The notes under the pieces: model-generated
What the model was told of the DNA's origin: nothing
What the model saw: only the letters and a program-made list of their open reading frames with translations
Database searches by the model: none
Translations under genes and position numbers: made by a program
Source: Paenibacillus sp. FSL K6-1330
GTDB taxonomy: Bacteria > Bacillota > Bacilli > Paenibacillales > Paenibacillaceae
Direction of reading: 5' to 3'
NCBI RefSeq assembly: GCF_037976825.1
Contig: NZ_CP150269.1
Location: 2,307,501 to 2,371,500 of the forward strand
DNA length: 64,000 nucleotides
Shown here: positions 7,167-16,427 of the stretch, in pieces
How the letters are laid out: each line of letters starts with the position of its first letter
Position numbering within the stretch: position 1 is the first letter of the stretch

Positions 7167-7214
7167 GCTATGAACGGACGGAATCAAGCAAGTGAGGGTC
7201 ATTGTTTATTTGAA

Positions 7215-7324
7215 GAGATAAGAAAGTATAAGCTTCAGAGGCTTACCAACCTTATCTCGCAAGAAAAACTTCCGCTATACGCGGTCTGTCTTCTGTGAAA
7301 GTACGTCGATAGACGTTTTTCTTA
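7215..7324 (+). repeat. Diverged single copy of the 113-bp structured repeat (copy D)
   Basis: This 110-base stretch aligns along its full length with the three tandem copies at 13695-14033. The second half is nearly identical (GCAAGAAAAACTTCC, CGCGGTCTGTCTTCTG, AAAGTACGTCGATAGACG and the final TTTTTCTT). The first half has diverged but keeps its inverted repeat: GAGATAAG (7215-7222) pairs with CTTATCTC (7251-7258), where the other copies have GATATCAG and CTGATATC. An inner TAAGC/GCTTA stem is also perfect here. It lies in the same direction as the flanking genes. Confidence 0.85.
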
Positions 7325-11945: not shown

Positions 11946-13036
11946 TTCAATACATGGAGCAATTGGCCCCGAAGCACGTGGCCGAACCCGATGACCGAAT
12001 CGGACTCCAGCTTGGAACATTGCAAAAGGACATACGCACGGTGCTGATAGCACTGGATGTCAATGATGAAGTGGTGGATGAAGCCATTGAACTTGGAGCT
12101 GACCTGATTATCGCGCATCATGCGATCATATACCGTCCGCTGAAACAACTGCAGACGGATACGCCAATGGGCAAGGTATACGAGAAGCTGATCAAACACG
12201 ACATTGCGGTATATATAAGTCATACCAATCTGGACGTAACCGAAGGCGGGATGAACGATTGGATGGCGGAAGCCTTGGGAATCGAGAACACGTCGCCTAT
12301 CCATGACATGCATAATGAGCAGTTGTCCAAGCTGGTGGTATTTGTGCCGAAGAGCCATCATCAAGAGGTGCTGGATGCTGTGCTAGGCGCTGGTGCAGGC
12401 TGGATCGGAAATTACAGCCACTGCAGCTTCAACATCGAGGGCTTTGGCACCTATGTTCCGCGAGAAGGCAGTAATCCTTTTCTAGGTAAGGAAGGCAAGA
12501 TGGAACGTGCAAATGAGGTTCGGATCGAGACGATTGTTCCTCATGCCATCCGAAATAAAGTGATCCAGGCCATGCTGAAGGCGCATCCTTATGAAGAGGT
12601 TGCCTATGATCTGTATGCGATGGATCTTAAGGGTAGATCCCTTGGTCTTGGCCGGGTCGGTAAGCTAAAGGAGCCTAAGACGTTGGCTGAGCTGGTAGAC
12701 GTGGTAAAAGAGAAACTGGAGGTTCCTCATGTTCGTGTCGTAGGTGACCTCGACCGAACCATCCGCAAGGCGGCCGTCATAGGGGGCTCCGGAGGACGCT
12801 ACATGATGAAAGCACTGTTCCGAGGAGCTGATGTGCTGGTCACGGGAGATGTGGATTATCATACGGCACAGGATGCCCTTGCAGCGGGACTTACGATCAT
12901 TGATCCGGGTCATAATGCCGAGAAGATCATGAAGGTCAAAGTGGCCGAGTGGATGGAGCAGAAACTGCAGGAGCATAAGTACGAAACCCGGGTTGTCGCT
13001 TCCCGCATCAATACAGAGCCGTTCCAGTTCGTTTAA
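11921..13036 (+). CDS. yqfO: Nif3-like dinuclear metal center protein (YqfO)
   Basis: A 371-residue NIF3 family protein, often annotated as GTP cyclohydrolase 1 type 2 although this activity is doubtful. Metal ligands appear as AHHAIIYRP (about residues 65-73), SHTNLD near residue 100, and GDVDYHTA and DPGHNAEK near the C-terminus. The middle third is the inserted PII/CutA-like domain found in the Bacillus type. The AGGAGG site lies within the end of trmK, seven bases before ATG, so translation is coupled. The cellular role is unknown, though proximity to trmK is conserved. Confidence 0.92.
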   Translation: MLAKGQTVIQYMEQLAPKHVAEPDDRIGLQLGTLQKDIRTVLIALDVNDEVVDEAIELGADLIIAHHAIIYRPLKQLQTDTPMGKVYEKLIKHDIAVYISHTNLDVTEGGMNDWMAEALGIENTSPIHDMHNEQLSKLVVFVPKSHHQEVLDAVLGAGAGWIGNYSHCSFNIEGFGTYVPREGSNPFLGKEGKMERANEVRIETIVPHAIRNKVIQAMLKAHPYEEVAYDLYAMDLKGRSLGLGRVGKLKEPKTLAELVDVVKEKLEVPHVRVVGDLDRTIRKAAVIGGSGGRYMMKALFRGADVLVTGDVDYHTAQDALAAGLTIIDPGHNAEKIMKVKVAEWMEQKLQEHKYETRVVASRINTEPFQFV

Positions 13037-13144
13037 AGAACAGCATTGTAAGTCATGGAAAAGGGTTCTCTTTTTAACACGTGACCATGAACATTACGTC
13101 GTCCAAGCTGGGAAATTAATCAGTTGTTGTTAATGTTTAATGGG

Positions 13145-13173
13145 TTGTGTACCGCTTCAAATCACTGTATAAT
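13145..13173 (+). promoter_or_regulatory. Sigma-A promoter of rnpB
   Basis: TTGTGT (13145-13150) and TATAAT (13168-13173) are separated by 17 bases. Transcription would start near 13180, a few bases before the P1 stem of RNase P RNA. Confidence 0.8.
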
Positions 13174-13187
13174 ATATAATGTTGTCC

Positions 13188-13596
13188 GGAAAGTTTGACA
13201 GACAATCGCTGGCGGCGTCAAAGCCGCGAGAGGAAAGTCCGGGCTCCATAGGGCAGGGTGCTGGATAACGTCCAGTCAGCGCGAGTTGAAGGATAGTGCC
13301 ACAGAAATGGACCGCCGATGGCCGCCTTAGGGTGGCACAGGCAAGGATGGAACCGAGGTGTAAGAGACCCCGAGGAACGCTGGTGACTTCGTTCCTGGTA
13401 AACCCCACCTGGAGCAAGACCTAATGGGACGCAGTCTCCTTCGAGGAGACAGCCTTAGCCCGAGGCGCGTCCGGGTTGGTCGCTTGAGCCGATTAGTAAT
13501 GATCGGCCTAGATAGATGATTGTCGCTCATGGTGGCAGGGTAGTTCCCGCTATGACCACGAAGAGCACAGAACCCGGCTTACGGAAAGCTTTCCCA
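13188..13596 (+). ncRNA. rnpB: RNase P RNA, type B
   Basis: Catalytic RNA of ribonuclease P, which cleaves the 5' leader from tRNA precursors. Universally conserved pieces are present in order: GAGAGGAAAGTCCGGGCTCC, then GGTAAACCCCACCTGGAGCAA, AGATAGATGATTGTC and CACAGAACCCGGCTTA. The ends form P1: GGAAAGTTT (13188-13196) pairs with AAGCTTTCC (13587-13595). The size of about 410 bases and the Bacillus-like arrangement indicate type B. It has its own promoter and a strong terminator at 13640-13691. Ends are set by the P1 pairing and may be off by a few bases. Confidence 0.96.
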
Positions 13597-13639
13597 ACTG
13601 AACAACATATTGTTTTACGGATATCGCAATGGTACAAGC

Positions 13640-13691
13640 GCGCATTTTCTTTACATTCCTTATCAGGTGTGTAAAGGAAATGCGCGTTTTT
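13640..13691 (+). terminator. Intrinsic terminator after rnpB
   Basis: GCGCATTTTCTTTAC (13640-13654) pairs with GTAAAGGAAATGCGC (13671-13685), a 15-bp stem with one G-T pair, followed by a T run. The repeat array starts only a few bases after this T run. Confidence 0.92.
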
Positions 13692-13694
13692 TCA

Positions 13695-13807
13695 AGATAT
13701 CAGAAAGTATAAACTTCGAAGCTTGGGTCTTCCTGATATCGCAAGAAAAACTTCCTCTAACCGCGGTCTGTCTTCTGAGAAAGTACGTCGATAGACGTTT
13801 TTCTTTT
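13695..13807 (+). repeat. 113-bp structured repeat, tandem copy A
   Basis: First of three head-to-tail copies with an exact 113-base period. It begins AGATATCAGAAAG and ends in GACGTTTTTCTTTT. Stem 1: GATATCAG pairs with CTGATATC across about 30 bases. Stem 2: AAGAAAAAC pairs with GTTTTTCTT and encloses the second half. A short CGTC-GATA-GACG hairpin stands just before the final T run, which makes the end terminator-like. Confidence 0.92.
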
Positions 13808-13920
13808 AGATATCAGAAAGTATAAACTTCGAAGCTTGGGTCTTCCTGATATCGCAAGAAAAACTTCCTCCAACCGCGGTCTGTCTTCTGAGGAAGTACG
13901 TCGATAGACGTTTTTCTTTT
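13808..13920 (+). repeat. 113-bp structured repeat, tandem copy B
   Basis: Nearly identical to copy A over all 113 bases. It differs at TCCTCCAACC (copy A TCCTCTAACC) and CTGAGGAAGT (copy A CTGAGAAAGT). The second change makes the inner arm pair perfectly here: ACTTCCTC with GAGGAAGT. Confidence 0.92.
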
Positions 13921-14033
13921 AGATATCAGAAAGTATAAACTTCGAAGCTTGGGTCTTCCTGATATTGCAAGAAAAACTTCCTCCAACCGCGGTCTGTCTT
14001 CTGAGAAAGTACGTCGATAGACGTTTTTCTTAT
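13921..14033 (+). repeat. 113-bp structured repeat, tandem copy C
   Basis: Third copy, again 113 bases after the previous start. It has GATATTGC where A and B have GATATCGC, and shares the TCCTCCAACC form with B. The copy ends at TTTTTCTTA, after which the sequence becomes unique and leads into the cotD-like gene 110 bases later. Confidence 0.92.
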
Positions 14034-14144
14034 GGTTTTGTGAAAATATTGGGAGTTCATCCGCCCTTTAAGGATAATCGTCCATACCAAATAGCCCTTT
14101 GGGTAATAAGCTATAATCATCAACGGAAAGGAGATGCAAAAAAC

Positions 14145-14423
14145 ATGTCTTGTTTTAACGAAAATCCATGTCCTCCTGTGTCACCGATAGTGTGCGAACC
14201 GATCGTTGTCGTTAGAGACCACTATGTACCGCAAATTGTACCCGTTATTCATCCGATTAAAGTGGTGGATAAGATTCACTGTGTACCTGTAGAAAAACAT
14301 GTATATACGTACAGCGAAGAAGAAGTCGTATCCGAGAAGGCAGGCTATGGCGGAGTTACCGTATCCGGCAAGCGTTCGAAGAAAGCTGCAGCACGTACTA
14401 GCCGTTCCCGCCGCAAGAAATAA
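14145..14423 (+). CDS. CotD-like spore coat protein
   Basis: A 92-residue protein starting MSCFNENPCPPVSP, with a central stretch rich in Val, Pro and His (HYVPQIVPVIHPIKVV) and a basic C-terminus rich in Lys, Arg and Ser. The V-P-x-I-H-P pattern recalls CotD-family inner coat proteins of Bacillus, which are deposited on the forespore. I chose ATG 14145 with AAAGGAG upstream; the frame stays open to 13965, but that extension runs through repeat copy C and is not credible as protein. Family call is moderate; no coat localisation signal is recognisable by eye. Confidence 0.7.
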   Translation: MSCFNENPCPPVSPIVCEPIVVVRDHYVPQIVPVIHPIKVVDKIHCVPVEKHVYTYSEEEVVSEKAGYGGVTVSGKRSKKAAARTSRSRRKK

Positions 14424-14451
14424 ATGTAACGGCGCCTTGCTTCTGAGTATG

Positions 14452-14492
14452 AATAAAGCAGCTAACGCTAGCGAGGCGGAAGCTGCTTTATT
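14452..14492. terminator. Bidirectional terminator between cotD-like gene and protease
   Basis: AATAAAGCAGCT (14452-14463) and AGCTGCTTTATT (14481-14492) form a 12-bp stem located between two convergent genes. T-rich sequence follows on the plus strand; the minus-strand side is weaker. Confidence 0.8.
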
Positions 14493-14501
14493 TCGATTGT
14501 T

Positions 14502-16427
14502 TTATTCCTTTGAGCTGTTTAATTTGCGAAGCTCCCGCTCCAGATTCCGAAGCGTTTGACCTGGCCACATTTGGAGTGGGACTTCGGGCACGCCAACCGA
14601 TTTCAAGGATTGGAAAATATCAATCTGACCATGACCGTAATATTTATCTTTTCCTTTATCGCCAAGATCGACCGCTTGGTTTATCATGGCGTCCATGACT
14701 TCCTGATTGGTCAGGTCAGGGTTAAGGGAACGAATGAGACCGGCCATGGCAGCTGCGTGGGGGCTAGCCATGGAGGTTCCGGATAGAGCCGCGTATTGAT
14801 TCCCTGGAAAGGTGCTTGCAATATTGGTCCCTGGAGCAGCCACGTCGATATAATCGCCGTAGTTGGAATATTCCGCCCGCTTCTGATTGGAATCCGTTGC
14901 GGCGACGGCCAGCACTTCCGGATAGGCGGCAGGATAACCAGGGCGCTCCGTGTTGTCATTGCCTGAGGCGGCAACAAGGACAACGTCACGGTCATAAGCA
15001 TATTTCACGGCATCATGCAGGAACTGGGAGTCCGCATAGTTGCCTAGACTCATATTGATCACCTTGGCTCCGTGATCTGTCGCCCAAATAATCCCTTCTG
15101 CGACGGCATAGGTTGTTCCTGATCCGGATCCGTCAAGCGCTTTGACCGGCATGATTTTGTTGTACCAGCTTACCCCGGCAACACCTTCACCGTTATTGAC
15201 CAGGGCGCCGATGATCCCGGCCACATGCGTTCCATGACCAACATCATCCAAGGGCTGCTTGTCCTTATCTACGATGTTGTACCCTTCCACCAACTGCCCA
15301 TTCAAATCGGAATGCTGAAGATCCACTCCCGTATCAACGACTGCAATGATCACATCTTCACTGCCCCTGGACAAATCCCAGCCCCGGTTCGTCTCAATGA
15401 CGGGCAAATTCCACTGATACTCAGAAAACAGCAAATCATTCGGGATATTGACCTGCGCGTTCGCTCCATCCGGTAAGGAATCCGAGCTTACCCTGGATTG
15501 ATGGATGCGATCATTGGTTAAATAGATGTAGTGAGGCTCGGTATATTTGGGTTTCCACTTCTGCTCGAAATAGGAGCGGAGTTTAAGGTAGTCCATATCC
15601 TTGGAACGGAAAACATAAGCATAGCCAAGTTTCCTCGGAGTTTCACACGATATTTCCTTAGAGATATCGTGGAGCTGCTGTTGTGACGGCTCATTTTGAA
15701 AGGACACCACAATTTCATTTTCGTAAAAGTGACTGGCCTTTTCATTATCATGTCCGGTTTTGACGGTGATGTCGGAGAGGGTATCTGCATGAATGGATTC
15801 GACCTTGAATTTTCCTTCCTTTGGGTACGGAATTAATCGCAGATTCCGCTTCTGGTGATTGCTTACTTCATGCAGTATGCCTTGATTAACCAAAGCAGCG
15901 GCGCCATATTTGCCATCCTTGGACGGCTCGGCAACAACAAAATAAGGCTGTCCCGCGACATTGAACTTGGGTGAATCATAAGTTTCTCCCCGTTTAAGCT
16001 TCTGCTGCGCGATTTGGAAATGATCGGTAATCAGTTTTTTATCTTCTTTGCTCATTTTGGGAAGCAGACCCTGTATATCTGTCATTGTGTTTTGCTTAAG
16101 GTTATACCACCGTACTTGCTGAAAATGCTTGTGAAACTTTTGTTCTTTTTGCGTATAGGCTTTTATTTGACCTGGGCTGCGCAAAGCGTTATTGTTCAGC
16201 ATCCTGCGCAGATGACCTTTTGCATCAATACGGTTTAGTTGATCCGTTGCCTGGATATCGCTTTGCATAGTAAAGTGCTTGGCCTTGTTCTCCTCTTGGG
16301 GCCTTAAAGGCTGTGCCGGTTCAGCTGTTGGAGCAGGCTGTTTCGAACCGGGGATGAACAGTAAGATCAGAAGCGCGCCAAGAACTGACGCTGCACCTAG
16401 GATGCTCCACAGGGTACGAGATTTCAC
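14502..16427 (-). CDS. S8 family subtilisin-like serine protease, membrane-anchored or secreted
   Basis: A 641-residue subtilase. A single hydrophobic segment (about residues 8-25) follows a short basic start, acting as signal or anchor. Then comes an unusually long N-terminal part of about 330 residues before the catalytic domain, far more than a normal inhibitor propeptide. The catalytic triad is visible as VVDTGVD (Asp about 365), GHGTHVAG (His about 401) and GTSMASPH (Ser about 552). I chose GTG 16427 because GAGGAGG lies seven bases upstream; the in-frame ATG 16448 lacks a site. Substrate is unknown; the gene is monocistronic and convergent with the cotD-like gene. Confidence 0.93.
   Translation of the reverse strand: MKSRTLWSILGAASVLGALLILLFIPGSKQPAPTAEPAQPLRPQEENKAKHFTMQSDIQATDQLNRIDAKGHLRRMLNNNALRSPGQIKAYTQKEQKFHKHFQQVRWYNLKQNTMTDIQGLLPKMSKEDKKLITDHFQIAQQKLKRGETYDSPKFNVAGQPYFVVAEPSKDGKYGAAALVNQGILHEVSNHQKRNLRLIPYPKEGKFKVESIHADTLSDITVKTGHDNEKASHFYENEIVVSFQNEPSQQQLHDISKEISCETPRKLGYAYVFRSKDMDYLKLRSYFEQKWKPKYTEPHYIYLTNDRIHQSRVSSDSLPDGANAQVNIPNDLLFSEYQWNLPVIETNRGWDLSRGSEDVIIAVVDTGVDLQHSDLNGQLVEGYNIVDKDKQPLDDVGHGTHVAGIIGALVNNGEGVAGVSWYNKIMPVKALDGSGSGTTYAVAEGIIWATDHGAKVINMSLGNYADSQFLHDAVKYAYDRDVVLVAASGNDNTERPGYPAAYPEVLAVAATDSNQKRAEYSNYGDYIDVAAPGTNIASTFPGNQYAALSGTSMASPHAAAMAGLIRSLNPDLTNQEVMDAMINQAVDLGDKGKDKYYGHGQIDIFQSLKSVGVPEVPLQMWPGQTLRNLERELRKLNSSKE

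Follow-up and report, generated by a model that had tools for sequence, protein, structure and literature searches.

A three-copy tandem repeat behind rnpB of Paenibacillus sp. FSL K6-1330 is probably a local cluster of a small non-coding mobile-element family found behind T-runs

Group II introns start with GTGYG and end with AY, MITEs of the RUP, ERIC and NEMIS type are accompanied by TA duplications, and IS605 elements carry their hairpins at subterminal positions. The bcr repeats of the Bacillus cereus group are covered by PMC6542083 and PMC3446304; the size of bcr1 is given as 147 or 167 bp in Table 3 of PMC2267715, and a T-rich motif, TTTAT, is tied to the mobility of bcr1 and the group A repeats in PMC6542083. 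The bcr1–bcr3 repeats (group A) resemble the element reported here, since they are small, dispersed, structured and mobile-like, with many copies per genome and in related hosts. However, bcr1 is described as confined to the B. cereus group, whereas the present family was found in Paenibacillus, Ammoniphilus (names taken from the 80 stretches listed out of 116) and seven families of the class, and its copies lie behind T-runs with no TTTAT duplication; by description, then, the family is distinct from bcr1. REP/REPIN sequences, mobilised by RAYT, are also short hairpin elements that are clustered, mostly downstream of genes and devoid of a gene in each copy (PMC3733652), but the domains of the present element differ from each other and do not make up one palindrome, and no transposase-linked copy was seen in the loci examined. 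The GTAG tag was absent from the ends of the consensus, and its REP-type alternative CGTC lies in helix P5, where it becomes CTTC or CCTC in other families. Group IIC introns insert at intrinsic terminators according to PMC4424553, and they share with the element this site, a fixed orientation and a structured RNA. Unlike them, the element is only ~113 bp long, has no ORF, starts with AAGATATC rather than GTGYG, gave no group II match in Rfam and is inserted a few bases upstream of the intron's point of insertion. RUP, ERIC and NEMIS are likewise short, non-coding, dispersed and partly palindromic, but they bear terminal inverted repeats of 15–30 bp (PMC3733652), whereas the sole terminal symmetry of the element is AAGA...TCTT; no inverted repeat joining both ends of a copy was listed (arms of ≥12 nt), and no duplication was detected. 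In the open-access literature searched, a scope outside which most subscription papers lie, no description of such an element was found. We regard it as a new family within an already familiar class of elements, the small non-autonomous dispersed repeats, that stands apart by its target and by its deep, covarying fold.

The DNA analysed here, hereafter the window, is a stretch of 64,000 nucleotides, whose element copies and their surroundings are summarized in Table 1. Tandem Repeats Finder located an array at 13695–14031 (period 113, 3.0 copies, 98% matches, score 653), which confirmed the original prediction of three head-to-tail copies behind the rnpB terminator; by unit boundaries the array spans 13694–14031 on the + strand, between this terminator and a gene named cotD-like in the first reading. 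Each unit extends from AAGATATC to GTTTTTCTT, and the following unit begins one T later, with TAGATATC replacing AAGATATC. The proposed outer stem GATATCAG/CTGATATC and the stem AAGAAAAAC/GTTTTTCTT closing the second domain were both present in the sequence and recurred when the fold was predicted. A copy finishes with ACGTCGATAGACGT-TTTTCTT, and in a simple scan each of the three array copies ended in a terminator-like 5-bp hairpin plus T-run, as had been expected for the T run (3 found versus 0.6 ± 0.8 in shuffles). As for the four copies counted initially, three in the array and a separate one at 7213–7323 were real, but an 18-nt similarity to the unit at 13612–13629 is not an element copy. 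ARAGORN detected no tRNA genes in 13000–14700.

Table 1. Element copies and related features (window positions; the linked repeat is given in genome positions).
Feature	Position	Strand	Remarks
RNase P RNA gene rnpB	13190..13596	+	RF00010, 268 bits, E 2.3e-86; neighbour with the terminator used as insertion target
rnpB intrinsic terminator hairpin and T-run	13636..13692	+	arms 13636–13660 / 13665–13689; insertion target
Element copy 1 (AAGATATC ... GTTTTTCTT)	13694..13805	+	model R2, 118.7 bits
Copy 1, helix P1	13696–13703 with 13733–13740	+	
Copy 1, helix P2	13743–13751 with 13797–13805	+	
Element copy 2	13807..13918	+	98% to copy 1; R2 lists overlapping ends of copies 1 and 3, not copy 2 separately
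Element copy 3	13920..14031	+	R2, 116 bits
Terminator-like hairpin ACGTCGATAGACGT and T-run, 3' end of copy 1	13785..13798	+	repeated at 13898–13911 and 14011–14024
Separate single copy, GAGATAAG/CTTATCTC subtype	7213..7323	+	G000:2314713-2314823; blastn 85%; R2, 122.5 bits
Linked repeat with ends GTGTTCAAAAAGTC / GACTTTTTGAACAAC	~2936582 (L089), ~4543923 (L092), ~4816756 (L093), ~6631188 (L096), ~5904534 (L097)		own genome

When one unit was searched by blastn against its own 7.4-Mb genome, 58 matches were obtained at E ≤ 10, of which 53 had E ≤ 1e-17, including a six-copy array, a three-copy array and the separate single copy in the window, so that the array is not a simple tandem duplication, as had been argued from its layout. 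A local duplication without wider meaning would explain why the array copies are 98% alike, but dispersed copies, both within this genome and across other genera, refute it, and we give it practically no weight. The original prediction had proposed searching with a covariance model, and such searches did find dispersed matches with covarying stems. A model built from 42 copies (R1) gave at least 113 matches in the own genome at E ≤ 0.1 and 68 at E ≤ 1e-5 among the 150 of 2103 candidates that were scored; the weaker matches include antisense overlaps of arrays.

Outside this genome, blastn matches were found in 19 of 60 genomes (own included), belonging to 3 of 17 genera and to families f1, f7 and f10. 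In samples of the class, R1 matched 25 of 299 genomes at E ≤ 1e-5, and R2, a model built from 49 diverse copies, matched 54 of 398 at E ≤ 1e-4 (own genome included in both counts), the latter distributed over 14 of 145 genera and seven families (f1, f17, f23, f29, f32, f37 and f42); in both surveys the filters were strict and the candidates scored in each genome were few. The number of matches at E ≤ 1e-6 ranged from 7 to at least 150 across twelve chosen positive genomes (at least 150 in G014, where 150 was the number of candidates scored, 77 in G049 and 70 in G005); G006 had 12 matches, on one contig. Sources named for the exact core pattern were Paenibacillus species and Ammoniphilus sp. 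YIM 78166, for the 80 listed of 116 stretches. Phages gave no element match and viral contigs no exact pattern match, and among plasmids one record carried the own-genome unit and none the L116 unit. This record, NZ_CP045296.1, is a large secondary replicon of Paenibacillus cellulositrophicus (896,837 bp, recorded as a plasmid) and matches the element at 16 places.

The statement that the repeat matches no known element was borne out in Rfam, where no family reached its gathering score on the element; release 15 gave only matches below gathering, in the window and in the loci, and also at permissive thresholds. One of them is a manganese riboswitch match at L088:1928-2130 (own genome near 2621549; 32.6 bits versus a gathering score of 45, E 1.9e-5), which overlaps a copy of the second subtype and represents either a real riboswitch cut by the insertion or chance. 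The repeat is best read as one local group within an old, non-coding family of small and selfish mobile elements, which is present in several families of Bacilli with up to 150 or more matches per genome.

The folding energy of one copy was unremarkable on the + strand (z = −1.69, 11 of 200 shuffles folding as well) and lower on the − strand (z = −3.13), so the evidence for structure is covariation, not energy. In an alignment of 49 copies, helices P1, P2, P3 and P5 were paired in 86.4% of cells, and covariation was 0.409 as against 0.182 ± 0.009 in shuffled alignments (a value reached by 0 of 500), and no more than 0.114 when the partners were slid. In P1, each of the 8 pairs shows changes on both sides, for instance from GATATCAG/CTGATATC to GAGATAAG/CTTATCTC. 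P3 was weak in the same alignment (67.3% of cells paired), and two of the five structure measures, double-change pairs and further pair types, were not above shuffles (87 and 89 of 500 as high). The second domain resembles a four-way junction, in which P4 (CTTC/GAAAG) was read by eye and lies outside the pairing counts. The conserved fold of the element is real. Counts of G-T versus A-C in alignment A3 (61 to 33, where independent columns would give 114 to 86) lean weakly to the + strand as the one that folds.

We also examined how pairing depends on the frequency of a variant, using the 152 aligned copies of the 281 best matched by model A1. Common variants (≥5%) kept P1/P2 pairing in 278 of 297 cells, a figure less independent than it appears because such variants are shared by descent, whereas rare variants (≤3 copies) kept it in 23 of 68 cells, where a fraction of 0.34 is expected with the partner unchanged. 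The fold thus seems to matter for spreading and not for each host site, and it is apparently kept by selection for spreading; since resident copies drift while spreading lineages keep the fold, a selfish element is favoured over a host RNA maintained at its site. A host regulatory or attenuator RNA family, spread by duplication and kept for its function behind terminators, would agree with the strong covariation, with the placement behind terminators and with the terminator-like end of the unit. We nevertheless consider it improbable, because rare variants break the stems at chance rate, orthologous sites are empty in relatives as described below, and species belonging to a single genus differ widely in their number of matches, with 0 in some and 150 or more in others. 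The idea of a stand-alone regulatory RNA was not supported for the array itself either, in which a sigma-70-type consensus scan found no promoter-like site; the copies follow the pattern of a mobile element, as judged from insertions opposite empty sites and from the chance-level stem decay of rare variants. The first reading of the array was supported in part. A repeat lying beside an RNA gene, rnpB or another, can be misread as a new regulatory RNA.

At the rnpB locus of G004, G002 and G006, the terminator was present and the element absent, and in 29 relatives whose rnpB loci were searched R2 detected no copy at E ≤ 0.01 (a single weak match, with E 0.05, was at L142). Seven further sites of the own genome (s4–s10) were queried in eight genomes, five of which sites gave a junction-spanning match and two (s7 and s10) none; s4, s5, s6 and s8 were aligned, the fifth match, s9, being outside the alignment. 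These four sites align as empty in 6, 1, 5 and 1 relatives; at s4, for example, the sequence of G021 equals the joined flanks of the own genome over 16 nt to the left and 49 nt to the right of the junction, and the right flanks of s5 and s8 have diverged. In the empty-site alignments the element lies at the 3' end of the T-run, i.e. its insertion was precise. No target-site duplication was detected at five empty loci, where one of 1–2 T is possible as the length of the T-run varies among relatives. Absence of the repeat elsewhere together with random substitutions in the stems, named beforehand as contrary evidence, was looked for, and copies proved widespread and their stems covarying instead.

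The preference for T-runs was quantified over 369 unique copies in the fetched loci, of which 286 had a left flank of at least 60 nt. In 162 of them (59 array-like copies were excluded and the rest had an unsure start), T occupied position −4 in 95%, with TTT[T/G]A as the left junction; on the right side A followed the element in 89% and T came after it in 74% of 146 copies. Of the 286 copies, 18 carried TTTAT in the 8 nt to the left of P1 and 28 carried it at the right end; CTTAT stood at the right end of at least 126, the right end being uncovered in some. After exclusion of 39 array-internal copies and 4 with a short right flank, upstream and downstream folds were compared for 243 non-array copies: a fold of ≤ −12 kcal/mol was found in the upstream 45 nt of 122 and in the downstream 45 nt of 23, and mean energies were −13.0 upstream, −6.6 downstream and −7.8 for upstream sequence after a rough shuffle. 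What is really targeted may be the T-run, for which the terminator is the usual place, because about half of the copies have no strong upstream fold; nor is a terminator required, since by eye s4 is a T-run that precedes a tRNA-like gene, and s6 follows an antisense ribosome-binding site with no clear terminator. With frames assigned mechanically, 27 of 192 copies with context overlapped a frame of ≥100 codons, and the upstream frame was on the same strand as the element in 123 of 187. By settling behind terminators, an element without genes can spare its host in an elegant way.

G432 contains 10 near-identical copies at 8 sites, behind terminators by eye, indicating recent spread. One occupied site is common to G002, G006 and G021 (L035, L034 and L036), indicating that some insertions are older than these species. 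Both strands of P1 were counted in 355 of the 369 copies by a loose test (≤2 mismatches, G-T allowed) that includes the 5'-truncated L024 and L014.

Array junctions in several genera read CTT+TAGATATC, CTT+AAGATATC or CTT+ACAGGATAAG. Since a copy ends with its own hairpin and T-run, exact head-to-tail arrays may arise by re-insertion. L018 and L013 show, by eye, a decayed remnant 5' of an intact copy, an order that fits the prediction of re-insertion behind an older copy. Identical arrays through unequal recombination are also possible.

Taken together, we put at roughly 0.75 the probability that the array consists of three copies of a non-autonomous mobile element of ~111–113 bp that is moved in trans to T-runs. 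The element would spread via a folded single-stranded form, either RNA or ssDNA, and machinery supplied in trans would attach it in a single orientation at the 3' end of a T-run, which usually follows a hairpin and thus lies just behind an intrinsic terminator, with no detectable target duplication. A resident copy, with its own hairpin and T-run, might then become a target itself and receive further insertions, giving exact head-to-tail arrays. A single-stranded folded intermediate is suggested by the fold being kept for spreading, by the orientation set by the T-run and by the absence of a detected duplication, and mobilisation in trans is proposed by elimination, because neither a mobilising gene nor a longer autonomous copy was found in the loci examined. 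Partial blastn hits at 11 loci were, by eye, diverged copies or fragments with no inner gene. Likewise, when 6,219 ORFs of 273 loci were clustered, no linked mobility gene was noticed among the 25 clusters that recurred most often, which were common families (ABC ATPase, permease, regulators etc.) or repeat-derived frames as read by eye from the first 60 residues.

Two sources of such machinery were considered within this explanation. The element may be a MITE of an HUH transposase (IS200/IS605 or RAYT-like) acting on single-stranded DNA, a tentative proposal that fits the T-run-set orientation with no duplication detected, the left junction TTT[T/G]A as a short target left of the element, the helices near both ends and the head-to-tail arrays. 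However, the helices extend to the very ends, unlike the hairpins of IS605, which are subterminal; a REP-like GTAG tag is missing, no gene was seen enclosed within a copy, and in the own genome, where a single Y1 transposase gene was found, the locus of that gene gave no match to the element model. This gene (L192, G000:C1:1569057-1569410) is followed by a frame that by eye is TnpB-like, as in the IS605 type.

Alternatively, the element could be a SINE-like retroelement whose RNA is copied by the reverse transcriptase of a group IIC intron, which we think rather unlikely: the insertion point of the intron (..CATT, ..TATT) lies a few bases beyond that of the element, and 5'-truncation is rare. 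Four 5'-truncated copies abutting the T-run directly (L024, L014, L087 and L401) were seen by eye among the 369 unique copies; they accord with incomplete reverse transcription or with deletion, and are too few to decide. The shared choice of intrinsic terminators (PMC4424553), the lack of a detected target duplication and the presence in the own genome of two group II introns, each with a terminator-like hairpin as its 5' exon, speak for this proposal. Against it, in the class sample group II reverse transcriptases (E ≤ 1e-30) occurred in 14 of 25 element-positive genomes compared with 111 of 274 others, and among relatives in 9 of 19 positive genomes compared with 23 of 41 others, and they were absent from G005, G049 and G006 despite the matches in these genomes. 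As no association appeared in either sample, a group II reverse transcriptase as obligatory partner is not supported. The fullest version of the idea, a bacterial SINE in the form of a cloverleaf-like non-coding RNA that would have spread through the Bacilli, inserts behind intrinsic terminators by an RNA-mediated route, finds the T-run by its own conserved A-rich strand (AAGAAAA) and borrows a host or intron reverse transcriptase, is similarly doubtful; here the A-rich strand of P2, the partner of the T-rich 3' end, might also pair with the target T-run. The enzyme that mobilises the element would bear on whether bacteria have SINE-like elements.

The two introns (L189 and L190, G000:C1:2694093-2695139 and 3037679-3038725) encode a 475-aa reverse transcriptase; over the stretch compared, they differ solely in how far a long A-run extends. 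A third reverse transcriptase, in a 531-aa frame, lies at G000:C1:1304537-1304956 (L191); the NCBIfam model nearest to its 140-aa piece was Drt4, at 78.5 bits versus a cut-off of 450.

Other repeats occur together with the element. At five loci of the own genome (Table 1), a copy of the second subtype (AGATATAGAATTTATAAG...) is held by a repeat of about 200–380 bp with the ends GTGTTCAAAAAGTC and GACTTTTTGAACAAC. This repeat was considered as a longer autonomous copy and rejected, since its length of up to about 380 bp leaves no room for a transposase gene; it resembles a separate MITE, either entered by the element or now carrying it. In G014 the rnpB terminator (L139) is followed, by eye, by another unit with a start like that of the second subtype (ATAGAATTTATAAGTTTTTTTGGGG...) and a different 3' part, which perhaps represents a related family whose 3' domain has been exchanged. 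Stretches similar to this unit adjoin, again by eye, the copies L295, L297, L298, L300 and L303, and its exact core was found at L297 only among the loci scanned.
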